NCBI GenBank assembly: GCA_020432595.1 | Contig: JAGQGA010000038.1 | Coordinates: 1 to 17,324 of the forward strand | Length of the DNA stretch: 17,324 nt | DNA from: Anaerolineales bacterium | Lineage (GTDB): Bacteria > Chloroflexota > Anaerolineae > Promineifilales > Promineifilaceae | Direction of reading: 5' to 3' | Part shown: positions 1,059 through 17,324 of the stretch, piece after piece | Position numbering within the stretch: position 1 is the first letter of the stretch | How the letters are laid out: the number at the start of each line of letters is the position of its first letter | Notes under the pieces: model-generated | Told to the model about the DNA's origin: nothing | Database searches by the model: none | The model's input: the letters and a program-made list of their open reading frames with translations, nothing else | Translations under genes and position numbers: made by a program

Positions 1059-1087
1059 AAAACGGCCGTTTTTCCCACCATTCCCCC

Positions 1088-1118
1088 TTGACTCGTCCCT
1101 TGGGGCAAGCCCTATACT
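1088..1118 (+). promoter_or_regulatory. MerR-type promoter with 19-bp spacer; probable leaderless start
   Basis: TTGACT at 1088-1093 and TATACT at 1113-1118 are separated by 19 bases. This over-long spacer is the hallmark of promoters activated by MerR-family proteins through DNA untwisting. The spacer contains the dyad CTTG-GGG-CAAG (around 1099-1109), a plausible operator. It lies directly before the MerR-family gene, so autoregulation is likely. The ATG of that gene starts 7 bases after the -10 element, so the transcript would have almost no leader. Confidence 0.75.
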
Positions 1119-1125
1119 TCTGGGC

Positions 1126-1940: not shown

Positions 1941-1959
1941 GCAAAGAATCGAGATTAGA

Positions 1960-1994
1960 GATTGGAGATTGTAAACCTTCATCAATCTCCAATC
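1960..1994. terminator. 12-bp inverted repeat between convergent genes
   Basis: GATTGGAGATTG (1960-1971) pairs with CAATCTCCAATC (1983-1994) around an 11-base loop. Related GAGATT/AATCTC units flank it on both sides. It lies between the MerR-type gene (plus) and the aldo/keto reductase (minus), so it could end both transcripts. There is no strong T-run. Confidence 0.5.
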
Positions 1995-2018
1995 CCCAAT
2001 CTCACAAAACGACCCCAC

Positions 2019-2954: not shown

Positions 2955-2967
2955 GGTATTTAATGGG

Positions 2968-3041
2968 ACGCAGATTTGCCTGATTCACCTGATTTTTAGC
3001 CGCCCAATGCCCCATATCAGGAAAATCAGGTAAATCTGCGT
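2968..3041. repeat. Long imperfect inverted repeat, probable terminator of the malic enzyme gene
   Basis: A 26-base left arm starting ACGCAGATTTGCCTGATT (2968-2993) pairs with a right arm at 3016-3041 with 23 of 26 positions complementary, around a 22-base centre. It fills most of the 92-base gap between the malic enzyme stop and the aldo/keto reductase start. Its ACGCAGAT ends recall the repeat at 12256-12319, suggesting a family of dispersed intergenic palindromes. Confidence 0.7.
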
Positions 3042-3046
3042 TCTAT

Positions 3047-5533
3047 TTACTCTTCATAAATAAAACGGCGCACCCGCTCAGCGATGGCGGCGGGGTCGGC
3101 GGGGGTACGGGCTGCGCCGGTTTCAATGGCTTTGCGGGCCACCGCTTCGGCGACGGCGGGAGCGACGGAGAAGTCGGTGCCTTTGGGGATAATCCAGTCG
3201 GGGCGCAGGTCACGGTCGGGAACCAGCCCAGCAATGGCTTGGGCGGCGGCGATTTTCATGGCATCGGTGATGTTGCGCACGCGGGTATCGAGGGCACCGC
3301 GAAAGATGCCGGGGAAGGCGAGCGAGTTATTGACCTGGTTGGGCAAGTCGCTGCGCCCGGTGGCAACGATACTGGCTCCAGCGGCCAACGCCTCATCGGG
3401 CATGATTTCGGGGGTGGGGTTGGCGAGGGCGAAGATCATGGGGTCTTTTGCCATCGTGCGCACCATGTCGCCGCTGAGAACGCCGGGGGCGGAGAGGCCG
3501 ATGAATACGTCGCGTCCTTTAACGGCCGTTGCCAAATCTCCCTTCAGCTTATCCTGGTTCGTCAGGTTCGCCATCTCCTCCTTAATCCAGTTCATCCCCT
3601 TGCGCCCCTTGTAGAGTGCTCCCCGACTGTCCAGCATCACCACATCCTCCACCCCCATCGCCATCAGCAGCTTGGTCACGGCCACCGCCGATGCGCCCGC
3701 GCCGTTGACGGTAATCGTCAGGTCGCCCGGATGTTTGCCCGTCAGCCGACAAGCGTTCATAATGCCCGCAAGGACAACAACGGCCGTTCCGTGCTGGTCA
3801 TCGTGGAAAATCGGGATGTCGGTCAGCTCGCGCAGCTTGTTTTCGATGTAAAAACAGCGCGGCGCACTGATGTCCTCCAGATTGATGCCGCCAAACGTTG
3901 GCTCAAGCTGCAGCACCACATCAATAATTTCATCCGGGTCCTGGGTGCTGAGGCAAATGGGGAACGCTTCGACCCCGGCAAAGGTGTGGAACAAAATCGC
4001 CTTGCCTTCCATGACGGGCATTGCCGCCCGGCCGCCAATGTTGCCCAGCCCCAGCACCGCGCTGCCGTCGCTGACCACCCCCACCAGGTTGCCGCGTGGG
4101 GTCAGGGCAAACACCTCTTCCATCTTCTCGCGGATGAGGCGCGATGGTTCCATCGCCCCCGGCACCAGGTAGAACATTTTGAGGATGTGGTCATCTCTGA
4201 CCGGAATTTTGGAGTAGACCTCCAGCAACCCGGTAAACCGCTCGTGCAGCTCTAGCGACTCCTCGGCGACGGTCATCTTTTCCTGGCTCTTGGCTGGCAC
4301 AGGCAGTTTGCCTTCGTAAACAAAGCGGCGGGTGCGGTCAAAAATTTTCTCTGGGTCTACCCCGGCGCGGCGGGCGGTGCCATGCTGAATGCTGGCGGCG
4401 GCCACGGCTCTGGCAACGACGGGCGCAACGCTGAAATCAATGACGCGGGGGTAGATGTAGTCGGCGTGGCGCTGGTCGTCGGGGATGATGGCGGCGATGG
4501 CTTCGGCGGCGGCGATTTGGGCGCGGATGTGGAAGTGGCTGGCGCGAACGTCGAGCAGACCACGGAACACGCCGGGAATAACGGCCGTTATATCCATCTG
4601 GTTTGGGTAGGTCGAATGCCCCGTTGCCACCACCGCCGCCCCTGCCGCCCGCGCCTCCGGCGGCGTAATGCACAGCGGCATGGCAAAAGTGAACAAAATT
4701 GGGTCAGAAGCCATGCTTTTGATCTGCTCCGGCGTAATCGTCGTCGAGGCAAAATCAATCAGCGCGTCGGCTCCCTTGATCATTTCGGCTAGGTCGCCCT
4801 TGGCGTTGTAGGTATTGCTCACCTGGGCAATTTCCCACTTGGCCCAGTTCATCCCCAGCGGCCGATATTCATAAATCGCCCCCAGTTCGTCGCAGACAAT
4901 GACCTGTTCCGCCCCATAGCGGTGCAAAATAAACGCCGTCCCCAGCCCGGCCAGCCCCGCCCCGTTAACGATAATCCGCATTTGGCGCAAATCCTTGCCC
5001 ACCACTTTGGCCGCATTGAGCAGCCCGGCCAGCACGCCAATAGCCACCCCTTCGCGGTGGTTGTTAACCACGGGGATGCTCATCGCCTTTTCCAGCCGGT
5101 CGGTGACGGCCGGCCCGGTGGGGGAGGCGATGTCTTCGAGGCTGACAGCACCAAAGGTGGGGCTGAGCCGCAGCAGGGTTTCAACGATGTGTTCGGCATC
5201 TTGGGCTTTGATGGCGATGGGCATGGCATCCACCCCGGCAAACTCTTTCATGATGACCGATTTGCTTTCCAGCACGGGGAGAATGGCTTCGGGGCCGATG
5301 TTGCCTAACCCAAAAGCGGCCGTTCCGTTGGAAACAATCGCCACCATGTTGCCGCGACAGGTGACATCAAACGAGCGGTACGGGTCGCGGGCCACTTCCA
5401 GACATGGCTCGGCCACGCCGGGGGTGTAGACCAAACTCAGCATGGTGCTGTCGCGCACCTGCACCTTGCTCCGCACCCCAATCAAGCCGCGATAGCGGCG
5501 GCGGTATTTAATGCCTTCATTTTCTTGGGTCAT
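3047..5533 (-). CDS. Tandem malic enzyme: degenerate N-terminal copy fused to a C-terminal copy
   Basis: 828 residues, about twice a small bacterial malic enzyme (oxidative decarboxylation of malate to pyruvate and CO2 with NAD(P)+). Unit 1 is roughly residues 1-405 and unit 2 roughly 426-828; each has its own malic and NAD-binding parts (VNGAGLAGLG at 189-198, VNGAGASAVA at 609-618). Unit 1 keeps a Tyr in VYTPGVAEP (Y36), K91 and E133/D134, but the metal-site stretch that reads FHDDQHGT in unit 2 (576-583) is VNNHREGV (156-163), and ANPTPE (704-709) is AMPLCITPPE. Unit 2 keeps E553/D554/D579 and K511, but the residue aligned with Y36 is L456, with a Tyr one position earlier (Y455). The units are thus degenerate in complementary ways. 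A GGAG ribosome-binding site lies about 10 bases before ATG. Three AACGGCCGTT motifs occur inside. No PTA domain is present. Confidence 0.92.
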   Translation of the reverse strand: MTQENEGIKYRRRYRGLIGVRSKVQVRDSTMLSLVYTPGVAEPCLEVARDPYRSFDVTCRGNMVAIVSNGTAAFGLGNIGPEAILPVLESKSVIMKEFAGVDAMPIAIKAQDAEHIVETLLRLSPTFGAVSLEDIASPTGPAVTDRLEKAMSIPVVNNHREGVAIGVLAGLLNAAKVVGKDLRQMRIIVNGAGLAGLGTAFILHRYGAEQVIVCDELGAIYEYRPLGMNWAKWEIAQVSNTYNAKGDLAEMIKGADALIDFASTTITPEQIKSMASDPILFTFAMPLCITPPEARAAGAAVVATGHSTYPNQMDITAVIPGVFRGLLDVRASHFHIRAQIAAAEAIAAIIPDDQRHADYIYPRVIDFSVAPVVARAVAAASIQHGTARRAGVDPEKIFDRTRRFVYEGKLPVPAKSQEKMTVAEESLELHERFTGLLEVYSKIPVRDDHILKMFYLVPGAMEPSRLIREKMEEVFALTPRGNLVGVVSDGSAVLGLGNIGGRAAMPVMEGKAILFHTFAGVEAFPICLSTQDPDEIIDVVLQLEPTFGGINLEDISAPRCFYIENKLRELTDIPIFHDDQHGTAVVVLAGIMNACRLTGKHPGDLTITVNGAGASAVAVTKLLMAMGVEDVVMLDSRGALYKGRKGMNWIKEEMANLTNQDKLKGDLATAVKGRDVFIGLSAPGVLSGDMVRTMAKDPMIFALANPTPEIMPDEALAAGASIVATGRSDLPNQVNNSLAFPGIFRGALDTRVRNITDAMKIAAAQAIAGLVPDRDLRPDWIIPKGTDFSVAPAVAEAVARKAIETGAARTPADPAAIAERVRRFIYEE

Positions 5534-5573
5534 TGGTAACTGCTCCAGTTGCTTATAGCGTAAATGAGGGTAA

Positions 5574-5601
5574 GTATCGGTTTGCTTGGGGGGACTGTCA
5601 A
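5574..5601 (-). promoter_or_regulatory. Candidate promoter of the malic enzyme gene
   Basis: On the minus strand TTGACA (5596-5601) is followed after 16 bases by GATACT (5574-5579), in the 83-base gap between the end of the STAND gene and the malic enzyme start. A perfect -35 element and near-standard spacing suggest the malic enzyme is transcribed independently of the upstream STAND gene. Confidence 0.55.
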
Positions 5602-5616
5602 GGAAAAGGGGTGAAA

Positions 5617-7383
5617 TTACGGCCGTTGCCAGCGCAAAAAGTGAACCGTGCCATTGTCGTCGCCAACCACAATCGTTTGGCCGTTAGGCGTCATTGCTAC
5701 ACGGTACAATCTAGCACCCAAATCAAGTTCCATCTCAACCTTGCCGTTAGCGAGATTCAAGACCTTGAGAGCTTGGTCGTAGGAGGCAGAGATAGCACGC
5801 CCACCATCGGGAGTGATGGTGTTAGCAGTGATAAAAACTTTATGGTCGTAGAGGGAGCGTTCAATCTGTCCTGTTTGTAGGTTCCAGACTTTAAGGGTTT
5901 TGTCGTCGGAGGCGGAGATGGCGCGTCTGCCGTCGGGGGTGATGGTGATAGCCCTGACTCCTCCTGAATGGCCGAGGAGGGTGCGTTCAACCTGTCCTGT
6001 TTGCAGGTTCCAGACCTTAAGGGTTTTGTCGTCGGAGGCGGAGACAGCGTGCCCACCGCCTGGGGTGATGGCCACGTCAGTGACAAAACCTTTGTGGCCG
6101 GAGAGGGTGTGCTCAGTTTGCCCCGTTTGTAGGTTCCAGACTTCGAGGGTTTTGTTGTCGGACATGGAAACAGCGCGTCTGCTGTCGGGGGTGATGGCGA
6201 CGGCTCTGCCCCATCCTGAATGGCCGGAGAGGGTGCGTTCAGCCTGTCCCGTTCGCAGGTTCCAGACCTTGAAAGTGTAGTCGTCGGAGGCGGAGACAGC
6301 GTGCCAACCGTCTGGGGTGATGGTCACGCCCCAGACCCTTCCTGAATGGCCGGAGAGGGTGTGTTCAGCCTCTCTGGTTTGCAAGTTCCAGACCTTAAGG
6401 GTTTTGTCGTCGGAGGCGGAGACAGCGCGTCTGCCGTCGGGGGTGATGGCGATGGCATTAACAAAACCTGCATGGCGGGAGAGGTCACGTTCAGCCTGTC
6501 TAGTTGGCGCATCTGCGGTCAGGTTCCAGACCTTGAGGGTTTTGTCGTAGGAGGCAGAGATAGCACGCCCACCGTCAGAGGTGATGGCTACAGCCATGAC
6601 CCAATCTTCATGGCCGGAGAGGGTGTGTTCAACCTGTCCCGTTTGCAGGTTCCAGACCTTAAGGGTGTGATCCCAGGAAGCGGAGACAGCATGCCTACCG
6701 TCGAGGGTAATGGCGACGGCCCTGACCCCTCCTGAATGGCCGAATAGGGTGCGTTCAGCCTGTCCGGTTGGCGCATCTGCGCTTAGGTTCCAGACCTTAA
6801 GGGTTTTATCGTCGGAGGCGGAGACAGCATGGCCACCGTCTGGGGTGATGGCGACGGCAGTGACAAAACCTGCATGGCCAGAGAAGGTGCGTTCAGCCTG
6901 TCCTGTTTGCAGGTTCCAGACCTTGAGGGTTTTGTCGTCGGAGGCGGAGACAGCGCGTCTGCCGTCAGGGGTAATGGCGATGGCCCAGACCCTTCCTGAA
7001 TGGCCGGAGAGGGTGCGTTCAGCCTGTCCGGTTTGCAGGTTCCAGAACTTAAGGGTTTTGTCCCCGGAAGCGGAGACAACATGTCTGCCATCGGGGGTAA
7101 TGGCAACAGCCAAGACCCATCCTGAATGGCCGGAGAGGGTGCGTTCAGCCTGTCCGGTTTGCAAGTTCCAGACCCTGAGGGTTTTGTCGTCGGAGGCAGA
7201 GACAGCACGTTTACCGTCGGGGGTGATGGCAACGGCCCAGACCCTTCCTAGATGGCCGGAGAGGGTGCGTTCAGCCTGTCCGGTTTGCAGATTCCAGACC
7301 TTGAGAGTTTTGTCGTCGGAGGCGGAGACAGCATGCCTATCGTCAGGGGTAATGGCGACGGCCAAGACCCTTCCTAAACGACT
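5617..7383 (-). repeat. 14-unit WD40-coding repeat array (about 126 bp per unit)
   Basis: Blades 1-12 are nearly identical in both protein and DNA; the core is AVAITPDGxxAVSASDDKT followed by LKVWNLQTGQAERTLSGH. Two blades carry a 4-residue insertion (SADAPTGQ or TADAPTRQ), and blades 13-14 are divergent. Differences cluster at fixed positions: the residues either side of the Val in SGxVxA, the two after PDG, and the one before D-K-T. High DNA identity marks recent amplification or homogenisation and makes the copy number prone to change or to assembly error. Confidence 0.9.
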
Positions 7384-8973
7384 GAAGAGTGTTATGAGCA
7401 GGGAGTTGTGTGGAGAAGGTAACGTGGGTGTTGTAGGAATGAGATAGCCTGAGGAAGCGCAAAAATCGCGCCCTTCGGCTAGCATCGCTTGAATAGCGGA
7501 TGAAGGTTGGTCAAGCAGCCGACCGTGCAGTTGTCCCAGCAGTTGCCCCTTGTAGCGCGTCAAAAACGGTGCCGCCATTTGCAAGGCCAGCTTTACCGTT
7601 TGTACATCAGGGTCTGCGGGCAGGTAATCGTAGTCAGCCAGTAGTTCGGCCATGTCGCTACTGCCTAGCTTGCCCTGCATCCAGCCCACGTTCAACAGTT
7701 GTTGCCGCAGAACTTCCATTTGCCCTGCCCCATGTAGATGGTAAATCATATACCGCCGCAGATATGGCTCAATCATCAATTCTTTGAGAGAACCAGCATA
7801 AATATCGCTACGGAACAATTGATAGTGGATGTTGGCAGCCGTTTTACCCAACTGCCCCAGAAAATAGCCGCGCAACACATCGTGTAGTTGGATTGATTGG
7901 GGGATCCGTGGCTGGTATTTTAGTAGTAGCGACAAATCAAAAAGCTGCTGACACAGCTCCTCGCTCTCAAACGCATCTAGCCCACCTGTTGCCTGCCACA
8001 GCTTTTGTACCACCAGGAGCGGAATCGCCACGTCTTCGGGAAAAATTGCCAGCTCCGCCAGCCGCTGCTGTTCGTCGGCCGTCAACAGCTCCAAACTCAC
8101 GCCAATTGTCTGCGCCACCGCCTGGTGACGTGCGGCGGCATGGCGCTGGTCAAAAGCAGTCAGCCCCCGCCTGTCCAGCGCCTCATTGACATAGGCCACC
8201 GCCTGTGCCAACGGCTGCTGCTGGCTGCGCCGCTGCAGCACGCGGTTAATCAGCTTCAGCAGCGTCGGCCACTCCCCCAGCCGCTGCGCCAGCTTTTGCA
8301 GCGGCCACCGCAGCGGCGCGGTTTCGCTGGCGGGCAGGTTGGCACTCAGCAGGGCGACGGCTTCGTTTTGCTGCATCGCGTCCACGTCCACCATCTGCAC
8401 CGCTGGCGGCAGCGTTTCCCGGTTGCGGGTGGTAATCAGCCGCGTGCAGCCGCTGCCGTCGCGCAAAAAGGGGTGCAAGTGCGCCTCATTCCATACGTCA
8501 TCCACCACCAGCAAACAGCGGCGTTCTCCCCACGCCTGCGCCAGCGTTGCCGCCGCCGCGTTCAAATCCACAAATCCCGGCCGCTCCCCCGTCAGCGCAT
8601 AGACCACATCCTCCACCAGCCCCGGCAGGTTGGTGGGGTTTTCCCCCAGCGTAATCCACAAAATCCCCTGCGGAAAAGCGTCGCGCACCCGCTGGTCGTG
8701 GCACAGTGCCGCCGCCAACGTCGTTTTGCCATACCCTCCCGCCCCGCGCAGCGCCGTCGTAATCGCCACCGGCCCTTGTCCCGCCGCCCCCAGCAGGTAG
8801 CCCAGCAGTTGCTCAAATTCCTGCGGGCGCGGCACAAAGTCATCTGGAGGTTCGGGTGCCATCCAGGGGATAGGGATTTCCTTTGGTTCCGCACCAACGG
8901 TTGATTTGACAATGATTGTCGAATCTCGAACGTTTTTGATTTTGATGTTATCGCCGCTGTTCTGCTCTGTCAT
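5617..8973 (-). CDS. Apaf-1-like STAND NTPase: NB-ARC, helical region, 14 WD40 blades
   Basis: 1118 residues, no signal peptide or membrane segment. Order: a 30-residue N-terminus with the strand-like motif GDNIKIKNVRDSTIIVKST (7-25); NB-ARC ATPase with P-loop GAGGYGKTT (77-85), Walker B LLVVDDVW (154-161), an LITTRNR segment (179-185) and an MHD-like LHD (363-365); an Apaf-1-type helical region (about 375-530); then 14 WD40 repeats of about 42 residues (531-1118), enough for two seven-bladed propellers. Known STAND proteins of this design are ATP-dependent switches: the sensor region detects a trigger, the NB-ARC oligomerises and an N-terminal element recruits or activates an effector. This one carries no effector domain of its own. 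The gene 141 bases upstream encodes a protein with a matching N-terminal-type motif and is the likely partner. No clear ribosome-binding site precedes ATG 8973, and the gene lacks the AACGGCCGTT signature. Confidence 0.92.
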   Translation of the reverse strand: MTEQNSGDNIKIKNVRDSTIIVKSTVGAEPKEIPIPWMAPEPPDDFVPRPQEFEQLLGYLLGAAGQGPVAITTALRGAGGYGKTTLAAALCHDQRVRDAFPQGILWITLGENPTNLPGLVEDVVYALTGERPGFVDLNAAAATLAQAWGERRCLLVVDDVWNEAHLHPFLRDGSGCTRLITTRNRETLPPAVQMVDVDAMQQNEAVALLSANLPASETAPLRWPLQKLAQRLGEWPTLLKLINRVLQRRSQQQPLAQAVAYVNEALDRRGLTAFDQRHAAARHQAVAQTIGVSLELLTADEQQRLAELAIFPEDVAIPLLVVQKLWQATGGLDAFESEELCQQLFDLSLLLKYQPRIPQSIQLHDVLRGYFLGQLGKTAANIHYQLFRSDIYAGSLKELMIEPYLRRYMIYHLHGAGQMEVLRQQLLNVGWMQGKLGSSDMAELLADYDYLPADPDVQTVKLALQMAAPFLTRYKGQLLGQLHGRLLDQPSSAIQAMLAEGRDFCASSGYLIPTTPTLPSPHNSLLITLFSRLGRVLAVAITPDDRHAVSASDDKTLKVWNLQTGQAERTLSGHLGRVWAVAITPDGKRAVSASDDKTLRVWNLQTGQAERTLSGHSGWVLAVAITPDGRHVVSASGDKTLKFWNLQTGQAERTLSGHSGRVWAIAITPDGRRAVSASDDKTLKVWNLQTGQAERTFSGHAGFVTAVAITPDGGHAVSASDDKTLKVWNLSADAPTGQAERTLFGHSGGVRAVAITLDGRHAVSASWDHTLKVWNLQTGQVEHTLSGHEDWVMAVAITSDGGRAISASYDKTLKVWNLTADAPTRQAERDLSRHAGFVNAIAITPDGRRAVSASDDKTLKVWNLQTREAEHTLSGHSGRVWGVTITPDGWHAVSASDDYTFKVWNLRTGQAERTLSGHSGWGRAVAITPDSRRAVSMSDNKTLEVWNLQTGQTEHTLSGHKGFVTDVAITPGGGHAVSASDDKTLKVWNLQTGQVERTLLGHSGGVRAITITPDGRRAISASDDKTLKVWNLQTGQIERSLYDHKVFITANTITPDGGRAISASYDQALKVLNLANGKVEMELDLGARLYRVAMTPNGQTIVVGDDNGTVHFLRWQRP

Positions 8974-9020
8974 CGTTACAACCAGTTATGAGGGGATTGG
9001 ATAATACAACGCCTGCAAAA

Positions 9021-9096
9021 AGTGTCTCATACCCGCGTAGGCGGGTATCCAGCCTGATGGTGAAGATGGATACCCGCTTTCGCGGGTATGACACTT
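9021..9096. repeat. Nested palindromic repeat between the effector-type and STAND genes
   Basis: The left arm 9021-9051 and the right arm 9068-9096 are complementary over nearly their whole length (ends AGTGTC and GACACT). Each arm is itself a small palindrome: ATACCCGC-GTAG-GCGGGTAT on the left, ATACCCGC-TTTC-GCGGGTAT on the right. It can fold as one long hairpin or two short ones. It sits in the gap between two co-directional genes. The CCCGC/GCGGG arms resemble intergenic palindromic repeats seen in many bacteria; a role as attenuator or RNA-processing site is possible. Confidence 0.75.
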
Positions 9097-9114
9097 GAAT
9101 GGTTCACTAACGTT

Positions 9115-9834
9115 TTAACCAGCTAGGCCGACAATTCGCCCAATCGTGGCAACAACTTGTATTGCAATTTGCAGTACAGTTGGCATGACATCTTTAATGT
9201 CTTCAGCTGCCTGTTTTAAGTTCTCCCCGAATCGTTTAACAGATTTTTGATTCGGGTTTTCCTTGTTGGCTGCATCAACAACAGCCTCAACTGCATCCGC
9301 TATCGCTTCGGCATCCTCTTTTTTACCCTCAGGTGCTTTTGCAAGCTCCTGGCTCAATTGATCAATCAATGACTTAAGGGTTTCTTTATCTGACTCCGTG
9401 CCATTTGGCATGGTTCCAATATTTTGCGAAACGTTTGTCAGAGTTGACTTGATAGCCACAGTTGAATTGGTCACATTACTAACGGTTATAGTATCGCCCA
9501 TGTTTATATCTCCTTGCCCCTGGTGAACAGTAGCGGGGCCACTAAATTGGTTGACAATGGTTGGTTTGCTGGCGGCAGAAACGGCCGTTTCCAAATCCAC
9601 CTGCGGAATATCCGGCCAAACCACATGCTGCCGCTGCTCCCGCACCAGGGTCAACAGGTCTGGCATTCGACTCGTGCGCCCCAGGTGGACAATCAGGGAT
9701 TCAACCAGAGCCGGTTTGTTGCTCGTCTCCAAACTTTCATGATCAATACGGAGATCAAAACAGATCGTTTTGAGTTCCCCCAAGCTAAAATAACGGTTTA
9801 GTTTTTCCCGCAAATCGGTCAATTCATTTGACAT
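9115..9834 (-). CDS. STAND-associated protein with effector-associated-type N-terminus, shared strand motif and hydrophobic C-terminal helix
   Basis: 239 residues from ATG 9834, chosen over an upstream in-frame start because AAGGAG (9842-9847) lies 7 bases before it. Residues 1-75 (LREKLNRYFSLGELKTICFD, then a VESLIVHLGRTSRMPDLLTLV helix) form a compact helical domain resembling the death-like effector-associated domains (EADs) of bacterial conflict systems; the subtype is not certain. Residues 92-140 are rich in short strands (TIVNQFSGPATVHQGQGDI, then GDTITVSNVTNSTVAIKST at 113-131). The latter matches the N-terminus of the next gene product at 10 of 19 positions. Residues 147-210 are charged helices, and 217-239 (MPTVLQIAIQVVATIGRIVG) form a hydrophobic helix that may act at membranes. 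Inference: this is an adaptor or effector switched on by the STAND protein. One AACGGCCGTT lies in the gene. Confidence 0.75.
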   Translation of the reverse strand: MSNELTDLREKLNRYFSLGELKTICFDLRIDHESLETSNKPALVESLIVHLGRTSRMPDLLTLVREQRQHVVWPDIPQVDLETAVSAASKPTIVNQFSGPATVHQGQGDINMGDTITVSNVTNSTVAIKSTLTNVSQNIGTMPNGTESDKETLKSLIDQLSQELAKAPEGKKEDAEAIADAVEAVVDAANKENPNQKSVKRFGENLKQAAEDIKDVMPTVLQIAIQVVATIGRIVGLAG

Positions 9835-9883
9835 GTACACGCTCCTTGTCTGTGGAAGCTTTGCCATTACGCAACTGGCTGCA

Positions 9884-9912
9884 ATCATACACAATTAAAC
9901 GGCATAACTCAA
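9884..9912 (-). promoter_or_regulatory. Promoter of the effector-type/STAND unit
   Basis: On the minus strand TTGAGT (9907-9912) and TATGAT (9884-9889) are separated by 17 bases, an ideal housekeeping-type arrangement. It would start transcription near 9877, giving a leader of about 40 bases with a good ribosome-binding site. It is only about 30 bases from the opposing promoter of the actin cassette. Confidence 0.65.
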
Positions 9913-9942
9913 TGCTTGCCCAAACCGGCCTAGGCAGATTGC

Positions 9943-9974
9943 TTGACAAACAGTGCCTATTTATTTAGTATAAT
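9943..9974 (+). promoter_or_regulatory. Promoter of the GNAT-profilin-actin cassette
   Basis: TTGACA (9943-9948) and TATAAT (9969-9974) are both perfect consensus elements, but the spacer is 20 bases, longer than the usual 17. Such spacing often implies a need for an activator, or use of a shifted -10 (TAGTAT, 9966-9971, at 17 bases). Transcription would begin near 9981. A five-codon ATG frame (9990-10007) precedes the acetyltransferase start and could be a leader peptide, though nothing supports this beyond position. Confidence 0.65.
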
Positions 9975-10023
9975 CCTCACTTAATTTGGATGGACAACAA
10001 TTCATAGCAATTCAAAGGTCCTG

Positions 10024-10467
10024 TTGATAGACATCCTTCCCCCTAAACAAAAGCACATTATTCCATTTTCCCTGGTTAAGCAGGGCAGCATTATCAGCCG
10101 TGCTGATGTCGTGTGGACTGGTTTAACCCATTGCGGTGATCGTCTTACGGTTTGTGGCGTGAGCAATGTGGTGACTATTCCAAAATGGCAACGCCAAGGG
10201 TATGGAACACAGCTTATCCAGCGGATAACAGCCTACATCTTAAACCAAAAAGTTGATTTGGGACTTCTTTTTTGCCAGTCCATGCTACTACCTTTCTACA
10301 GTGCCTGTGGTTGGGAAGCGGAACCGCACGCCATTACCCGGATTGGTACGCCAATGCAGTACGAACCTTATCCGGCTATGAGAATGATTTTATTGGTGTC
10401 GGCCAAAAGCCGACTTTATCAAGGGACGTTAGCAACGCAACCAGCATATGTAGACGCTATTTGGTAG
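10024..10467 (+). CDS. GNAT-family N-acetyltransferase
   Basis: 147 residues from TTG 10024; no ATG is available in the open frame, and AAAGG (10014-10018) sits 5 bases upstream. The acetyl-CoA-binding motif A is clear: VVTIPKWQRQGYGTQLIQRI, with the Q/R-x-x-G-x-G loop at residues 56-61. It is followed by DLGLLFC and PFYSACGWE (90-98), where Tyr-92 is in the position of the usual general acid. The fold begins close to strand 2; the first strand and helices of a typical 170-190-residue member appear missing or very short. The substrate is unknown. Similar PFYxxxGW proteins include aminoglycoside-2'-acetyltransferase-like enzymes. The stop is 30 bases before profilin, so it is in one operon with profilin and probably actin. 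In eukaryotes actin is N-acetylated by a GNAT enzyme (NAA80) that works with profilin; this gene could be an analogue, but only context suggests it. Confidence 0.8.
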   Translation: MIDILPPKQKHIIPFSLVKQGSIISRADVVWTGLTHCGDRLTVCGVSNVVTIPKWQRQGYGTQLIQRITAYILNQKVDLGLLFCQSMLLPFYSACGWEAEPHAITRIGTPMQYEPYPAMRMILLVSAKSRLYQGTLATQPAYVDAIW

Positions 10468-10497
10468 CCAGCTTACTTCCATTAGGAGAACACAACA

Positions 10498-10899
10498 ATG
10501 TCATGGGATAGCTATATTGATAATTTAATAGGCCACACTGGGGGTGCTTGTGACAAAGCAGCCATTATTGGGAAAGATGGTTCAAAATGGACAACAGATG
10601 GTCATCCAGAGGCGCTTAAAGTCACGCCATCAGAAGCGGCTGCCATTGGACGGGTTATGACTTCACAGGATTACACGTCTTTTCAGGCTAATGGGATCGT
10701 TGTTGAAGGTGTTAAATATCAGTTTTTACGAGCAGATGAAGTGGTGGCCTTAGGCAAAAAGAAGGATTATGGGGCTATTACGCTTCAGGCATCAGGAACG
10801 GCCGTTGTCATCGGCCATACTAAAGAAGGGATGAGCCAAGGAAACACCAACAAGGGCGTTGCGGTTATTGCTGAATACCTCACGTCTATGGGTATGTAG
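10498..10899 (+). CDS. Profilin
   Basis: 133 residues, the family's usual length, beginning MSWDSYIDNLIG; the MSWxxYxDN opening is diagnostic of profilin, the small actin-monomer-binding protein of eukaryotes. Other matching segments are KAAIIGKDGSKWTT, VTPSEAAAI, GVKYQFLRAD, a GKK-D-YGAITL stretch and the terminal helix VAVIAEYLTSMGM. The aromatic residues that bind poly-proline in eukaryotic profilins are partly kept (W3, Y6, W31, Y127). AGGAGAA (10484-10490) lies 7 bases before ATG. It is followed by a strong terminator-like hairpin and then actin. The AACGGCCGTT motif at 10797 encodes TAV in a surface-loop region near the C-terminal third, so the gene has been in this genome lineage for some time. 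Base composition is more A+T-rich than the flanking metabolic genes. Confidence 0.93.
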   Translation: MSWDSYIDNLIGHTGGACDKAAIIGKDGSKWTTDGHPEALKVTPSEAAAIGRVMTSQDYTSFQANGIVVEGVKYQFLRADEVVALGKKKDYGAITLQASGTAVVIGHTKEGMSQGNTNKGVAVIAEYLTSMGM

Positions 10900-10952
10900 C
10901 CATAAGCCAACTCTTTGTTCCGTCATATCATATTATATTGCGATTTTTAGGG

Positions 10953-10987
10953 AAAAGTTCAACTTCTTCGGAGAAGTTGAACTTTTT
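10953..10987 (+). terminator. Intrinsic terminator/attenuator between profilin and actin
   Basis: A perfect 15-bp stem (10953-10967 with 10972-10986) closes on a 4-base TCGG loop inside CTTCGG, and the descending strand ends in a run of five T (10983-10987). This is a textbook Rho-independent terminator located 54 bases after the profilin stop and 45 bases before the actin start. No convincing promoter is visible between it and actin, so it may limit read-through and set the profilin-to-actin ratio. Confidence 0.85.
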
Positions 10988-11031
10988 CTACGTATCATTT
11001 AGGAAAACGATAGTCTACATAGGAGATAAAC

Positions 11032-12129
11032 ATGGATAACCCAGCTGTTGTAATAGACAATGGTAGTGACTTGATAAAAATAGGCTTTGCCGGTGAGGAT
11101 GAACCCCGCGCTGTTTTTCCGGCCATTGTGGGGCGACCCCGTTCGGGACGAATGCGTTATATCGGTGACGAGGCTCTATTTCAACGAACCAGCTTGACTC
11201 TGAATTATCCAATCAAGCATGGCATCGTTACCAATTGGGAAGATATGGAGGCTATTTGGCGCCACGTCTTTTACAATGAACTGGGAGTGGCACCAGAAGA
11301 ACAGCCGATCATCCTGACAGAGGCTCCGCTTAATCCCAAGGCCAATCGGGAGAGGATGACCCAAATCCTTTTTGAGACCTTCAATGTCCCAGCTATGTAT
11401 GTGGTGTCCCAAGCTGCGGCGGCCATCTATAGCACGCAGCGTACTACAGGCATTGTGCTTGATATAGGTGATCATGTAACCCACGCAGTACCGATCTATG
11501 AGGGATATGCCTTGCCCCACGCCACTATTCGCCTTGATCTGGCTGGGGTCGATCTAACCGACTACTTGATGAAGATTCTAACCGAAGGAGGGTACAGTTT
11601 TACCACTACAGCCGAGCGCGACATTGTACGCGATATCAAAGAGAAGCTGTGCTATGTTGCCCTTGATTTTGAACAGGAGATGCAAACGGCCGTTAATGGC
11701 GACTCGTTAGAGAAGTCATACGAACTCCCTGATGGTCAAGTGGCTACCATTGGCAATGAGCGTTTCCGCTGCCCAGAGGCACTTTTCCAGCCTGCCTTCA
11801 TTGGCCTGGAATCAGCCGGGATTCATGAAACCATCTATAATGCTATCATGAAGTGCGACGTTGACATTCGCAAAGATCTATACGCCAATATTGTGCTTGC
11901 TGGAGGTTCATCCCTGTTTACCGGTATGGCCGATAGGTTACAGAAAGAGATCAGCAACCTTGCCCCACCCACCACAAGAATCAAAGTTATTCAGGAGACT
12001 AGGCAGCAATATGCCACTTGGCAGGGTGCTTCTCGGTTAGCATCGTTGCCGACTTTCGAACAGATGTGGATATCAAAAGGGGAATACGATGAGGAAGGCC
12101 CCACTATTGTGCATCGCAAATGCTTTTAA
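11032..12129 (+). CDS. Actin (eukaryotic-type) with shortened D-loop
   Basis: 365 residues against about 375 for conventional actin. From memory the two align end to end at roughly 70 percent identity by eye, far above MreB, ParM or crenactin. Hallmarks: [20 protein letters not shown] (19-38), [93 protein letters not shown] and the C-terminal IVHRKCF. The catalytic Gln (Q127, Q137 in muscle actin) and H151 are kept. Changes: the D-loop between GRPR and YIGDEA is 5 residues (SGRMR) instead of about 13; the first phosphate loop is DNGSD, not DNGSG; the second is DIGDHVTH, not DSGDGVTH. The acidic N-terminus is short (MDN). The C-terminal profilin-contact region looks intact. AGGAG lies 6 bases before ATG. 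AACGGCCGTT at 11685 encodes TAV in a variable loop. Confidence 0.97.
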
Positions 12130-12149
12130 GGACACAGGCCGTTAATATC

Positions 12150-12229
12150 CTCACTTGAGAATGGCCGACGATTTGGGTGACAATTGTGAGGACGGTGGGC
12201 AGCAGTTTATCTGTATCCTTTTGTAGTTG
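12150..12229 (-). pseudogene. Possible remnant of an effector-type C-terminal helix
   Basis: On the minus strand, just after actin, one frame reads LQKDTDKLLPTVLTIVTQIV. The C-terminus of the effector-type protein at 9115-9834 reads MPTVLQIAIQVV at the matching place; P-T-V-L, the following I, Q and final V coincide in the same order. There is no start codon, and the frame runs on into the antisense of actin. I read it as a decayed fragment of a related gene, but the similarity is short. Confidence 0.35.
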
Positions 12230-12255
12230 TCGGGCGGGGAAAACGGCCGTTTTTT

Positions 12256-12319
12256 AACCACAGATGAACGCAGATGCACACGGATAAAAATCTGTATGCA
12301 TCCGTGTTTATCTGTGGTT
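12256..12319. repeat. Dispersed-type inverted repeat with AACCACAGAT ends
   Basis: AACCACAGAT (12256-12265) pairs with ATCTGTGGTT (12310-12319), and ACACGGAT (12278-12285) with ATCCGTGT (12300-12307), leaving an internal loop on one side. The following 12331-12369 bases repeat ATCCGCG-like units. Sequences of the type ACCACAGATxAACxCAGAT recur as intergenic repeats in many environmental bacteria; here one end shares ACGCAGAT with the repeat at 2968-3041. Confidence 0.7.
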
Positions 12320-12458
12320 TTGTTTCAAAAAATCCGCGCTAATCCGTCCCAATCCGCGTCATCCGCGCATCCCTTTTTTGTGGGCAAAAACGGCCGTTTT
12401 CCCCGCACCCACCACGCATCCAATTTGTTAACCCCACCAGATCCAAGAAACCATTATC

Positions 12459-12486
12459 TTGCTCCCCACCCACAATCAGATACAAC
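12459..12486 (+). promoter_or_regulatory. Weak candidate promoter of thpR, near-leaderless
   Basis: TTGCTC (12459-12464) and TACAAC (12481-12486) are spaced by 16 bases, and ATG follows the -10 by 7 bases, the same distance as in the MerR-type gene. The elements are poor matches, so this rests mainly on the repeated geometry. Confidence 0.3.
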
Positions 12487-12493
12487 AGGGCGC

Positions 12494-13063
12494 ATGGACA
12501 CAATTCGCACCTTTATCGCCCTGCATCTGCCCGCTGCCGTCGAGCAAACGCTGTTAGACACCATCAGCCAATTTCGCCTGCGCTTTCCTGCTGCAAGCGT
12601 GCGCTGGGTGCGGCAGGAACAACTGCATCTGACGCTGCGCTTTTTGGGGGAAACGGCCGTTTCCCATCTCCCCGCCCTACAACAAGGGTTAGACCACATT
12701 GCTACGCGCCATGCGCCACTCACGCTGCGGCTTGGCAGCCTGGGTTGTTTTCCCAACTGCCAGCGACCACGTGTTTTTTGGGTTGGTTTAGAAGGGGAAT
12801 TGGAACGGCTGCACGCGCTCCAGCAGGAAATTGAGGGGTTGGTTAATCAGTCAGGGTGGGCGCGGGAAAAACGGCCGTTTTCCCCCCACCTCACCCTCGG
12901 TCGGATCAAAGATGCCCGCCAGCTACAGGGCAACATTTGGTACGGTACCCCAACCAGCGGCGAAAAGCAGATGCCACTAACAAAAGTTGCCCTCGTCGAA
13001 AGCCAGTTGCGCCCCGACGGAGCCGTCTACACGATACGCCACGTCAGTCGGCTGACGCTGTAG
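12494..13063 (+). CDS. thpR: RNA 2',3'-cyclic phosphodiesterase (2'-5' RNA ligase family)
   Basis: 189 residues, the usual size of the ThpR/LigT branch of the 2H phosphoesterase superfamily. These cytoplasmic enzymes open 2',3'-cyclic phosphates on RNA and can join tRNA halves in vitro. Both catalytic HxTx motifs are present: HLTL at 45-48 (in QLHLTLRFLGE) and HLTL at 132-135 (in PFSPHLTLGR). The opening RTFIALHLP and the RPRVFWVGL segment are also typical. ATG 12494 is chosen; an upstream in-frame extension into the repeat region has no family similarity. Two AACGGCCGTT palindromes encode TAV and RPF inside the gene. The 3' end overlaps the convergent FlaR-like gene by 87 bases. Confidence 0.92.
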   Translation: MDTIRTFIALHLPAAVEQTLLDTISQFRLRFPAASVRWVRQEQLHLTLRFLGETAVSHLPALQQGLDHIATRHAPLTLRLGSLGCFPNCQRPRVFWVGLEGELERLHALQQEIEGLVNQSGWAREKRPFSPHLTLGRIKDARQLQGNIWYGTPTSGEKQMPLTKVALVESQLRPDGAVYTIRHVSRLTL

Positions 13064-13594
13064 TCCGGCAGGATAGCACCACGGGTCGGCGAGGAATTGA
13101 GAAACGGCCGTTTGTGAAGTCAAATGAACCACCCGCTTTTGCTTCTGCACCACCACCAGCCGCGCCAACATTTGCGCCCTGGCACGGTGCGGATATGCCC
13201 AAATACGGCGCACAAACTGCGGGTACTGCGGGTCAAACAACCGTTCCTGGCATCCCGACGCAATATCCGGGCGCACTTTCCAGGCATATTGCACCCGCCG
13301 CTTTGTGGCTTGCAGCACACACAGCCAGCGCGGCAAATCGAGAAAAACAACCGTATCAGCCACCGCCAGCCGCATTTCCAGTGTGCTGCGGTAGTTACCA
13401 TCCATAATCCACGCTTCTCCAGCGGTCAGGCTTCTCACCCGGCTTTGCCATTCCAAAGAGGGGGTTTCTTGCCACCCTGCCTGCCAAAAGTGGCGATCTA
13501 GGTGGATAACGGGCACGTGCAGCACGCCCCCCAGTTGGCGCGACAAGGTAGATTTACCCGACCCGCTGGAGCCAACAACCAAAATTCGCCGCAT
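12977..13594 (-). CDS. FlaR-like P-loop nucleoside-kinase-type protein
   Basis: About 205 residues from ATG 13594. It begins MRRILVVGSSGSGKSTLSRQ, with the P-loop GSSGSGKST. It continues with IHLDRHFWQAGW, then WIMDGNYRSTLEMRL and VVFLDLPRWLCVLQATKRR. These are the marks of adenylate-kinase-like small P-loop proteins often annotated as topology modulation protein FlaR; the true reaction is unknown. An in-frame extension to 13732 exists, but the family starts at the MRRIL strand. The last 30 residues run antisense through the thpR 3' end and are not conserved in type, suggesting a lost stop codon. One AACGGCCGTT lies inside and another directly upstream of the start (13601). Confidence 0.8.
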   Translation of the reverse strand: MRRILVVGSSGSGKSTLSRQLGGVLHVPVIHLDRHFWQAGWQETPSLEWQSRVRSLTAGEAWIMDGNYRSTLEMRLAVADTVVFLDLPRWLCVLQATKRRVQYAWKVRPDIASGCQERLFDPQYPQFVRRIWAYPHRARAQMLARLVVVQKQKRVVHLTSQTAVSQFLADPWCYPAGLQRQPTDVAYRVDGSVGAQLAFDEGNFC

Positions 13595-13940
13595 CGTGGG
13601 AACGGCCGTTTGTATCCCCCCAAAAAACAGGCGCGGCATCTGGTCAATTGCTGTCTCTATGGCATAATTACTTTGCGGCAGCATTGACGGTAAATCAATT
13701 TCAAAACAAGGTGCTGTTTGCGGAATCATCATGGTTTTACAATGCTCACATCTTTGGCATAACGTACACCGAATCGAACCCCATCAGGGTAAGACAGGTT
13801 ACTTCCTGGCTGTACAGCGCCAAACCTTCACCCGGCTTTCACCTCAACAACAGTGGTCTCATCCCACCGCATCCACATTCCATCATAAACTTATGTGCAA
13901 CCAAGTGAACAGCCCCATCCTATGACACAGGACAACTATC
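13595..13940. other. Divergent intergenic gap without supported gene
   Basis: 346 bases between the FlaR-like gene (minus) and the ABC exporter (plus). It contains one AACGGCCGTT palindrome at 13601 and no convincing promoter pair, RNA gene or conserved reading frame that I can recognise. The nine-codon frame beginning ATG 13922 overlaps the start of the exporter. Confidence 0.6.
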
Positions 13941-15701
13941 TTGAGTGAATTTGACGTAAAAACAACCTACTACTCCGACCAAAGTACCAGTGGCCGCTGG
14001 GTCTTCTCCCATCTCAAACGCCACTGGCTGCTCATCGTCGTCTTGTTTATCGGCGCCTTTGGCAACGCTGCCCTGGCTGCCGCCGTACCCGTCTTCATTG
14101 GCAACGCCTTTGATGCCGCCCTGGAAACACCCGCCAATCTAGCTGCCATCGGTGGTGCCGCCATCGGCCTCATCATCAGCCAGGCCATTCGCGCCGTCCT
14201 CCAGCTAGGGCGCAACTTCTCCAGCGCCGTCATTGGCGAACGGCTAGAACGCGACATGCGCGAAGAGCTATACTTGAACCTGCTAGGCAAAAGCATGGCC
14301 TTCCACGATCTACAGCCCGTCGGCGACACCATGGCCCGCGCCACCAACGATGTTCATGAGATCAACCTCATGTTCAATCCCGGCATCAACCTCGTCGTTG
14401 GCTCAGCCAACTTTCTTGTCATGCCGCTGCTCTTTGCCCCACGCTACCATTGGCAACTTATGGCCGCCCCACTCGCCTTTATCATCCTCTATATCATTGC
14501 CCTGACTCGCTACATGAACGTGCTGCGCGGCATTGCCGACCGGGTGCGCCGTGCCTTTGGCACCATGAACAGCCGCTTGGCCGAAGCACTGGACGGCATT
14601 GAGCTGGTTAAAGGGGCTGCACGGGAAACCGAAGAAATTGACCTATTCAGCCAAAACGCCGGTGAATATCGCGCTGGGGCTGTGGAACAGGGGCGGGTTG
14701 AGGCACGCTTTCTGCCGCTACTCTTTTTGGGACTGGCGCAGGCGGGCGGCTTTGCCCACGCTCTCTATCTATTTAGCCAAGGAGCGATTGCCGTGGGCGA
14801 CGTGGTGGCCTACATGGGGCTACTGGCACTCTTTGGCTTTCCCACTTTTACTTCCCTCATGGCCTACTCCCGCGTCTCGCTGGGGATGGCGGGTGCGCGC
14901 CGCGTGCTGGAAATGATGCACATGGAAACCCATTTGGATGAGAACGTCAGCGGCCATGATGCACCCATTAAAGGCAAAATCAGCTTTAAAAACGTCTCGT
15001 TCGGCCACATTCCCAACAGCCCGGTACTCAAAAATATCAGCTTTGAGGTGCAGCCGGGGCAGACCGTGGCTCTGGTGGGGCAAACGGGTTCGGGCAAAAG
15101 CAGCCTTGCCAAGCTCATTAACCGCATTTATGACGTGGATGAAGGGTGTGTGGAAATTGATGGGGTGGACGTGCGCGATTGGAAACTGGCCTCGCTGCGC
15201 CACCAAATCTCGATCATTGAGCAAGACATCTTTCTCTTTTCGCGCACCCTAAGCGAAAACATTGCCTTTGGGAACCCAGAAGCCACGCAGGCAATGGTGG
15301 AAAAAGCGGCCAAGGCAGCGCAAGCCCATGACTTTATCATGCGCTTTAAGGATGGATATGAGACGGTGGTGGGCGAACGAGGGGTCACGCTTTCTGGCGG
15401 GCAGCGGCAGCGGCTGGCACTGGCGCGGGCGTTCCTCACCAACCCGCGCATTTTGATTTTGGATGATTCCACCAGCGCGGTGGATAGTGCCACCGAAGAC
15501 CAAATTCAGCGGGCAATTCAAGAGGCGGCATCCAACCGCACAACCTTTTTGATTACCCACCGGCTATCGCAAATCCGCTGGGCGGATCAGGTGGTGGTGT
15601 TGCGGAAGGGGCGGCTGGAAGCGGTGGGCAACCATGAATCGCTGATGCAGCAGTCAGCGGCGTATCGGCGGATTTTTGAGCAGTATGAGGCGTTGAATTA
15701 G
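13941..15701 (+). CDS. ABC exporter half-transporter (TMD-NBD) with degenerate Walker B glutamate
   Basis: 586 residues. An N-terminal domain of about six membrane segments (residues 28-315) precedes the nucleotide-binding domain (347-586), the layout of type-IV ABC exporters of the MsbA/BmrC/TM287 kind in the inner membrane. NBD motifs: Walker [10 protein letters not shown] (380-388), Q-loop IIEQD, signature LSGGQ (484-488), Walker [12 protein letters not shown] (505-515) and H540 in LITHRL. The catalytic glutamate after Walker B is Asp-509, and the A-loop aromatic is His (VSFGH). LDDSTSAVD is typical of the degenerate partner in heterodimeric exporters, yet no second half lies beside it in the window. 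The start is TTG 13941 with AGGA (13929-13932) 8 bases upstream; an in-frame stop at 13923 rules out extension. An ATG at 13922 in another frame (stop 13946) leaves open a small start-region frameshift. The substrate is unknown. Confidence 0.93.
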
Positions 15702-15703
15702 CG

Positions 15704-15922
15704 ATGGGACCCCTTGTGTATTATTGTCGCTGGCAGGGAGCGAAGCTGCGGCTACGGGGGCGAGATGAAACGGCCGTTTGGGGGCACCTCGTCTTCCACG
15801 AAAACAACCAGGAACGCACCCAGTTCTTCCGCTACCAACTGGCCGAACAACTGCTAACGATCACCAAAGCAACGGGAGAAGAGACAATTCAGCTTGATAA
15901 AATGGGAGTGGCCGTCACTTAA
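15704..15922 (+). CDS. Small protein of unknown function
   Basis: 72 residues, starting 2 bases after the ABC exporter stop and therefore probably translated from the same mRNA. I do not recognise a family. It is rich in aromatic and charged residues (MGPLVYYCRWQGAKLRLRG at the start), with alternating polar/hydrophobic stretches that suggest a small beta-rich fold; no signal peptide, membrane segment or Cys pair. AACGGCCGTT at 15769 encodes the TAV in DETAVWGHLVF. It ends 10 bases before the stop of the convergent ATPase gene. Confidence 0.55.
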   Translation: MGPLVYYCRWQGAKLRLRGRDETAVWGHLVFHENNQERTQFFRYQLAEQLLTITKATGEETIQLDKMGVAVT

Positions 15923-15932
15923 AGCCGAACCT

Positions 15933-17324
15933 TTATTTGGGAGACGGTGCGACCCGCAGCGTCCGCAGCCGGTTCAGCGCTGCCCCCAGTTCAAACGGCC
16001 GAAAATAAGCCAAGTCTCCCACCGGGTAGCGAAAGTCAGACACGACCGTTAGCCCTTGTTCGGCAATGTCGGCCATGATGCAGTGGATGATGTCGGCTAA
16101 CGGCCGTTTGCCATCCACATACTTCTCCAGCCCATACACCAGCGCATCGGCAATGGCCCGCGTTTGGCTGCTGTTCACCAACTGCGCCACCGCCCCCAGG
16201 TCAATATTGTCCTCGCCAAACTGAATGGCCGAAAGCCCCCGCGTCTTCACATTCACATCCCGCCGCCCCTTGCTGGGGTCCAAGCTGTTGGGCAAGGGCG
16301 CACGCGGTGTCAACTGCCCAAACGATTGCCCCCCTTCGGCGTGGCGCTGCTGCCGGTTGGCCTCGGCAATCGCCTGAGCCGCCGCCGTCACCTCCTGCGG
16401 CACATAGCTATCCAGCGCAATCACCCGGTCAGCCACCTCAAAATAGTCGCCGCTGCCGCCAATCACCAAAATCGTCGAAACGCCAAGCTCATCATAAAGC
16501 TGGCGCACCTTGTCAATAAACGGTGTAATTGGCTCCTTGTCCTTGGCAATCAATGCCTGCATCCGCTGGTCGCGGATCATAAAGTTGGTCGCCGCTGTGT
16601 CTTCGTCAATCAGCAGTAGCTCCGTCCCCAACTCCAACGCTTCCAAAATATTGGCCGCTTGCGAGGTGGAGCCAGAGGCATTGTCGGTGGAGAAGGCGGT
16701 GGTGGCTTGCCCAAAGGGGAGGTTGTTGATAAAGGGGGAAATGTTGACCCCAGCCACATAACGGCCGTCTTCGGCGCGAATCTTCACCGCTGTGTCGTTT
16801 GTCACCACAAACTCCCGCCCATCGCCGGGGCGATGGTTGTACACGCCGCGCTCCAAAGCGTTGAGCAGGGTGGATTTGCCGTGAAAACCGCCGCCAACAA
16901 TGAGCGTCACCCCAGCGGGAATGCCCATGCCGGTCACTTCGCCCTGGTTGGGCAGGGTGAAGGAGACGTGCAGGCTGTCGGGGGATTGGAAGGGGATGAC
17001 GTTGTTGCCCGATAACGGCCGTTCATCCACCCCCGACCGGCGCGGCAAAATGGCTCCGTCGGCCACAAACGCCACCAGCCCCGCCGCCGCCAACTGCGCC
17101 CGCAGGGCGTCGGCATCCTCGTTCACCGCCACATACCGCTGCACGGCGGCTGGTTTGCGGTTTTTGTAGAGCAGTGCCGCCTGCACCATTTCGGGAACGG
17201 CTTCGCACAGCATGTCGGTGGCGGCGTAGCCCAAGACGGTGCGGCCACGGGCGGGCAAGCCCACGCGAAACCGAGCTTCAACATAGCTGGGGGTGACAGA
17301 AACGGCCGTTTGTTCCAGCACTTC
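15933..17324 (-). CDS. Predicted ABC-class ATPase (COG3044 type), 5' end outside window
   Basis: About 464 residues are visible; the frame is still open at the right edge, and complete members of this family are about 100 residues longer. Walker A is VGGGFHGKSTLL, the signature-like segment is TDNASGSTSQAANILEALE, and Walker B is LLLIDEDTAATNFM; these are the marks of the stand-alone soluble 'predicted ATPase of the ABC class', whose cellular role is not established. Downstream conserved parts include STILVIGGSGDYFEVAD and a SALVYGLEKY-like segment (ALVYGLEKYVDG). Three AACGGCCGTT motifs lie inside (16099, 17014, 17301). Confidence 0.88.
   Translation of the reverse strand, partial: EVLEQTAVSVTPSYVEARFRVGLPARGRTVLGYAATDMLCEAVPEMVQAALLYKNRKPAAVQRYVAVNEDADALRAQLAAAGLVAFVADGAILPRRSGVDERPLSGNNVIPFQSPDSLHVSFTLPNQGEVTGMGIPAGVTLIVGGGFHGKSTLLNALERGVYNHRPGDGREFVVTNDTAVKIRAEDGRYVAGVNISPFINNLPFGQATTAFSTDNASGSTSQAANILEALELGTELLLIDEDTAATNFMIRDQRMQALIAKDKEPITPFIDKVRQLYDELGVSTILVIGGSGDYFEVADRVIALDSYVPQEVTAAAQAIAEANRQQRHAEGGQSFGQLTPRAPLPNSLDPSKGRRDVNVKTRGLSAIQFGEDNIDLGAVAQLVNSSQTRAIADALVYGLEKYVDGKRPLADIIHCIMADIAEQGLTVVSDFRYPVGDLAYFRPFELGAALNRLRTLRVAPSPK

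Follow-up and report, generated by a model that had tools for sequence, protein, structure and literature searches.

Described relatives of the locus

The closest described counterpart of the locus considered here is that of Microcystis aeruginosa PCC 7806, in which an actin (ActM) and a profilin (PfnM) are encoded by adjacent genes and have already been characterised. PfnM binds ActM and also rabbit G-actin, ActM polymers are ribbon-shaped, and PfnM drives their bundling into sheets and stabilises these sheets (PMC3254629). The pair is also mentioned in passing in two genome papers (PMC2442094; PMC3741299). The present analysis concerns contig JAGQGA010000038.1 of an Anaerolineales bacterium, 17,324 nucleotides long in the stretch analysed (the window), which encodes a short GNAT acetyltransferase-fold protein, a profilin and a eukaryote-type actin in this order on the forward strand. 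An earlier note on this DNA had presented eukaryote-grade actin and profilin in bacteria as very rare, the pair being nonetheless not unprecedented in view of ActM/PfnM (PMC3254629), and had missed the third gene, the GNAT gene 30 bp upstream of that for profilin. An adjacent bacterial actin–profilin pair is known already from ActM/PfnM; what seems to be new is the GNAT gene beside a bacterial profilin. At roughly even confidence, we read GNAT, profilin and actin as one resident module, with binding of the actin as the predicted task of profilin, and docking on profilin and acetylation as those predicted for the GNAT.

The Asgard profilins and actins are archaeal and presumably much more divergent. 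They resemble the present pair in that both proteins occur in prokaryotes (PMC8410842). BARP of Haliangium ochraceum and the actin of Candidatus Uab amorphum are likewise actin-family proteins in bacteria; compared by description only, they differ in that no profilin or GNAT is mentioned beside them in the available text of the two reports (PMC3035250; PMC6906331), the word 'profilin' occurring 0 times in the latter. In animals, NAA80 binds profilin and, together with profilin 2, acetylates actin (PMC7864067). This system resembles the window in having a GNAT enzyme, a profilin and an actin as its three parts, and it shows that such an arrangement can work (PMC7864067).

The acetyltransferase gene and its link to profilin

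The GNAT gene (10024..10467, forward strand, 147 residues) starts with TTG, has AAAGG upstream and belongs to a subfamily linked to profilin. PF13527 and PF13508 both match its product above their cut-offs, and an AlphaFold2 model built from 37 sequences reaches a mean predicted local distance difference test score of 92.4. Residues 56–61, QRQGYG, fit the pattern Q/R-x-x-G-x-G/A, which we take to be the acetyl-CoA motif of GNAT proteins. The gene lies directly upstream of profilin at five of the 11 bacterial profilin loci, namely those of the window, two Calothrix, Planktothrix and Microcystis, with gaps of 30 bp in the window, 63 bp in the two Calothrix and 45 bp in Planktothrix. An actin gene adjoins profilin at three of the 11, GNAT being the commoner neighbour. 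Both occurrences of the GNAT gene among 386 cyanobacterial genomes (up to 10 candidates scored per genome) are beside profilin. No report of a GNAT next to a bacterial profilin was found among the titles and abstract openings listed from the literature searched, with most subscription journals outside it, and the word acetyltransferase is absent from the main text on ActM/PfnM (PMC3254629).

Gene order differs among the loci: GNAT–profilin–actin in the window, actin–GNAT–profilin in Planktothrix, and actin–remnant–profilin in Microcystis. A plain structural pair of the ActM/PfnM type, forming a static sheet or shell, with the GNAT as a neighbour that hitched on to the same island, is a possible reading but a rather unlikely one. 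It gains from the biochemistry of ActM/PfnM, which needs no GNAT (PMC3254629), and from the state of the gene in two relatives, since the Planktothrix copy carries an in-frame TGA and Microcystis retains a C-terminal remnant only. On the other hand, the adjacency of GNAT and profilin is kept despite the differing gene order, and also in Calothrix, where no actin was detected, and the five profilin-linked GNATs fall in one clade (support 99/97) together with ten relatives of mostly unknown gene context. It is unlikely that GNAT and profilin alone are the functional unit, whether profilin keeps a GNAT toxin in check or serves an enzyme as docking subunit, and that actin is an optional later partner.

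The profilin-linked GNATs lack an N-terminal segment that is present in long relatives, two of which come from metagenome-assembled genomes (MAGs) of Anaerolineae and Herpetosiphonaceae, the sole hint at a Chloroflexota host in these data. Compared with AAC(2')-I, the window GNAT differs in being linked to profilin and in having no counterpart of the first ~42–64 residues of the solved chains. It was also considered as a homologue of NAA80, an assignment that is not favoured; NAA80 does not appear to be its closest relative in fold. The polyproline-rich β6–β7 loop of NAA80 is absent from it (10 prolines among 147 residues, with no run longer than two), although insect NAA80 also lacks polyprolines (PMC7864067). 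In an intact metagenomic relative, P0248, an N-terminal extension resembles by eye the out-of-frame 3' end of the Planktothrix actin gene, and therefore actin and GNAT probably adjoin at that locus too. Linkage judged from equal record sizes was dropped because short sizes can agree accidentally, which leaves the 12,090-bp pair P0238/P0241 as the one apparently genuine case.

The actin and its profilin-binding face

The profilin (10498..10899, forward strand, 133 residues) matches PF00235 over the full model length with an E value of 8.9e-31 (107.1 bits; cut-off 25). The actin (11032..12129, forward strand, 365 residues) matches PF00022 over residues 3–365 with an E value of 2.5e-133 (445.1 bits; cut-off 27), and scores 23.1 bits against MreB (PF06723), under the 27-bit cut-off. 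Both are intact, intron-free open reading frames with no internal stop, preceded by the Shine-Dalgarno-like sequences AGGAGA (profilin) and AGGAGAT (actin), as had been described earlier for two genes side by side on the same strand. By sequence, the best solved-structure matches of the actin are solved actins (E 9e-184). That of the profilin is 1f2k, a chain named profilin II (E 6.3e-16), which we take to be from Acanthamoeba. The window actin is 73–76% identical to six aligned actins, a 99% copy (P0025) being set apart. The syringactin model of NCBIfam matches only its C-terminal 100 residues, below the cut-off of that model, and the term was not found in the literature searched.

Ten bacterial eukaryote-type actins, including that of the window, were compared in their anatomy with sea-urchin actin. 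The window actin retains the C-terminus IVHRKCF but is eight residues short in the DNase I-binding loop (D-loop), where 8 of 15 positions (residues 38–52) are absent, and its phosphate loops are altered from GSG to GSD and from GDG to GDH, with Q in place of K336. It alone among the ten has all of Q137, D154 and H161, presumably the ATPase residues of actin. Most of subdomain 2 is absent in five of the ten and most of subdomain 4 in three. In subdomain 2, the actins of G005, G754 and G598 are each short of 30 residues, that of G112 of 29 and that of Planktothrix sp. PCC 11201 of 33 (out of 37 positions); in subdomain 4 the deficits are 12 in each of the first three, 81 in G112 and 82 (out of 89 positions) in Planktothrix. 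In the actin of G607, 10 residues are absent from subdomain 2, and the frame that was read contains none of the 89 in subdomain 4. Those of G566 and G650 miss none in subdomain 2 and 0–2 in subdomain 4, and that of Microcystis is three residues short in the D-loop. Two of the ten are mini-actins: one of 257 residues in Planktothrix (L004, 8698–9471), which adjoins the TGA-interrupted GNAT gene and an intact profilin gene, and one of 265 residues in the cyanobacterial genome G112 (L032, 8331–9128, reverse strand), in which no profilin was found. Four full-length actins without Q137 (P0082, P0089, P0102 and P0108) are possibly more bacterial actins; one of them is named as coming from a Microcoleus MAG, on a 6.3-Mb contig.

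Eighteen actin residues were taken as presumed contacts of profilin, after the bovine complex. On this list, the actin side of the profilin–actin interface is kept in the window at 18 of 18 positions, compared with 72% identity at other positions (random P 0.005), which supports the partnership proposed earlier. The scores in the other nine are 18 in G005, G754 and G598, 17 in G566, 15 in Planktothrix, 13 in Microcystis, 9 in G112 and G650, and 4 in G607. Genomes with profilin thus score 18, 13, 18, 15 and 18, and those without detected profilin 9, 17, 9, 18 and 4; conservation of the face leans towards the presence of profilin without strictly tracking it. The actins of G005 and G754 lack most of subdomain 2, keep the face at 18 of 18, and have a profilin in the same genome.

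A face of 17–18 in five of the ten bacterial actins, three of them without most of subdomain 2, would also suit proteins aimed at eukaryotic predators or hosts, in which case they would mimic a partner of foreign actin or profilin and bind to it. PfnM does bind rabbit G-actin (PMC3254629). This reading is nevertheless very unlikely, as the window actin retains its ATPase residues and the Pfam scan revealed no gene for export or injection among nine window proteins, signal peptides not being examined.

The sequence comparison with Microcystis was made with strain LEGE 91341 (locus L007), the ActM/PfnM data being from PCC 7806. In both loci an island holds a eukaryote-type actin gene that adjoins the profilin gene, and the D-loop region is shortened in both; the GNAT remnant of L007 lies between actin and profilin. 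They differ in several respects. The two actins are 58% identical, the gene order is reversed in the window, and the window GNAT is intact; the window retains Q137, where L007 has G, lacks 8 D-loop residues to the 3 of L007, and scores 18/18 on the profilin face to 13/18 there. The Planktothrix locus (L004) likewise has actin, GNAT and profilin all in one cluster, its differences being the 257-residue actin without most of subdomains 2 and 4 and the in-frame TGA in the GNAT gene.

Profilin sequence and ancestry

W3, Y6 and W31, presumably the aromatic residues of profilin that bind polyproline, are present in the window profilin and invariant across an alignment of 16 profilins. The Planktothrix profilin looks to be under constraint, with omega of 0.10 against Methylococcaceae and 0.16 against Microcystis. 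An annotated profilin in a Nocardia genome record (P0206) is 62% identical to that of the window.

The profilin–actin module is best read as resident and horizontally acquired. A single transfer event, as the earlier note proposed, may have brought it in: a single clade of bacterial profilins is not rejected (approximately unbiased test, p 0.126, with P0122 and P0123 counted as bacterial without a known host), but the best profilin tree, a weak one of 134 columns, mixes bacterial and animal sequences. The actin tree, in which the bacterial branches are long, did not resolve one transfer from many.

Distribution among genomes

Profilin is rare in bacteria, as was claimed earlier: among cyanobacteria, 3 of 386 genomes have a match over the cut-off, as do 2 of 377 in the phylum of genome G005. 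Matches in the cyanobacteria G306 and G334 were below the cut-off, in frames of more than 1000 residues, and were not counted. A eukaryote-type actin (E 1e-15) was found in 3 of the 386 and in 6 of the 377, up to five candidates per genome being scored in the latter. The recurrence of the pair in other bacteria, which the earlier note had named as support for its reading, is seen in the Microcystis and Planktothrix neighbourhoods, which hold both genes. Two cyanobacteria and two genomes of the G005 phylum have both genes; without both centre genomes the overlap has P values of 0.010 and 0.013 (combined 0.0014), which are descriptive only, G006 and G007 being already known from the profilin scan. 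Leaving the centre genomes in gave 1.2e-4 and 2.1e-4, values that were not used, since these genomes had been selected for having profilin.

Two of the seven searched profilin genomes without an adjacent actin, G005 and G754, carry actin elsewhere. In these two genomes of the same phylum, actin and profilin lie on separate contigs (L011 and L006 in G005; L041 and L042 in G754). No eukaryote-type actin was found in the profilin genomes G001, G002, G003, G007 and G008, several of which are MAGs and maybe incomplete, with the query that does find actin in G004, G005, G006 and G754. The Pfam actin model, applied to eight genomes, matched once in each of the other four of these five (23–34 bits, at most 35 with frame neighbours) and not at all in G008. 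These matches are taken for MreB.

Residence in bacterial DNA

The three genes lie on a low-GC (guanine plus cytosine) island at 9000..12300, with a GC content of 0.47 compared with 0.58 outside; the island also includes the gene of an EAD7 (effector-associated domain) protein at 9115–9837. GC at third codon positions is 0.40–0.51 in the EAD7, GNAT, profilin and actin genes and 0.61–0.79 in the ten other genes measured. The low GC of this region and the hairpin between profilin and actin (below) had been left out of the earlier note. Although the drop in GC could be taken to point to contaminating eukaryotic DNA or a chimeric assembly, such an origin is highly improbable. The palindrome AACGGCCGTT occurs in 18 exact copies in the window, and in 21 with up to one mismatch, compared with 0.7 in shuffled sequences. 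Its copies span 1061–17310 as a signature of the host genome. One copy lies within profilin (10797) and another within actin (11685). Near-identical proteins also occur in other assemblies: the profilin as P0121 (99%, on three contigs), the actin as P0025 (99%, 11 member sequences) and the GNAT as P0242 (96%, 15 members), and apart from P0025 no actin exceeds 76% identity among the best 120 of 7980 matches. The palindrome within both genes and the near-identical proteins elsewhere make eukaryotic assembly scrap unlikely. The absence of introns, the Shine-Dalgarno-like sites and the bacterial genes on the flanks likewise weigh against contamination. The claim, made earlier, of a eukaryote-grade actin and a profilin adjacent in bacterial DNA is supported.

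Searches for mobile carriers gave little. No relative of profilin, GNAT or actin was confirmed in viral contigs, and no profilin or actin was found in plasmids and phages. Matches to the GNAT in plasmids were limited to two Streptomyces plasmids (27–30% identity). Two proteins encoded on the flanks, compared with plasmids by tblastn, had only remote counterparts there (Nonomuraea, 47.7%; Staphylococcus, 50.5%), which speaks neither for nor against a Chloroflexota host. The Thermomicrobium and Herpetosiphon plasmid records contain no profilin, which says little.

Transcription and neighbouring genes

The profilin and actin genes are separated by 132 bp. Within this gap lies a terminator-like hairpin (10950..10989, forward strand) with an 18-bp stem, a TTCG loop, an A-rich 5' arm and a T-rich 3' arm; the gap at 10900–11030 folds as RNA with -30.4 kcal/mol (z -3.0). 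Judged by eye the hairpin looks like a two-way terminator, although a consensus terminator scan did not list it. Its position between the two genes suggests that GNAT and profilin are probably co-transcribed and that actin is on a transcript of its own. A sigma-70-like promoter candidate, TTGACA-17-TAGTAT (9943..9971, forward strand), precedes the GNAT gene with 10 of 12 consensus matches; with six such sites found in the scanned region and 4.3 expected, its assignment as the GNAT promoter is only suggestive.

Profile searches identified a malic enzyme, a WD40-repeat protein, the EAD7 protein, a LigT-like phosphoesterase, an ABC transporter and an ABC-class ATPase as bacterial neighbours. The malic enzyme (3047–5533, reverse strand, 828 residues) apparently comprises two malic-enzyme units within a single open reading frame. 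The WD40 protein (5617–8973, reverse strand, 1118 residues) has 11 WD40 stretches and an N-terminal part that is P-loop-like by eye; the adjoining EAD7 protein (reverse strand) seems to have a motif in common with it. Lying next to the cassette, the two resemble a bacterial pair for conflict or defence, and PADLOC gave matches to candidate models only in this region.

Possible mechanism

In the favoured reading of a three-gene module, the profilin of the window very likely binds its actin, because the profilin face is kept. The actin would polymerise, since it retains the ATPase residues and most of the contacts between subunits; ordinary F-actin is unlikely because much of the D-loop, which reaches into the next subunit, is gone. 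From its sequence the actin is thus likely to form non-canonical polymers. Ribbons or sheets with profilin attached would be expected, such as those measured for ActM/PfnM (PMC3254629). For the GNAT, the prediction is that it docks on profilin and acetylates profilin or the actin held by it, because its adjacency to profilin survives changes of gene order and is also seen where no actin is found. As the profilin-linked GNATs lack the N-terminal segment of their long relatives, the acceptor site of the short GNAT may be open at its N-terminal end, and profilin, or a protein bound to profilin, may complete that site.

A more specific form of this proposal is offered as a tentative and somewhat doubtful one. 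The three genes would make up a kit that bacteria evolved on their own, in which profilin serves a stripped-down GNAT as the subunit for docking and for the acceptor site, so that profilin-bound actin is modified; it would be a convergent counterpart of NAA80, profilin 2 and actin in animals. GNAT and profilin would be the ancient mobile core, which eukaryote-type actins, freed from the contacts of F-actin, joined or from which they were lost.

Significance

Eukaryotic actin is held almost unchanged by its many partners, and the bacterial copies are natural experiments in which profilin alone is perhaps kept. With Q137, D154 and H161 intact, the window actin is well suited to studying which constraints on actin come from profilin alone, and the five profilin genomes without a detected eukaryote-type actin raise the question of what profilin does without actin. 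The GNAT gene beside profilin, in turn, offers a direct test of whether profilin-guided acetylation of actin arose twice.
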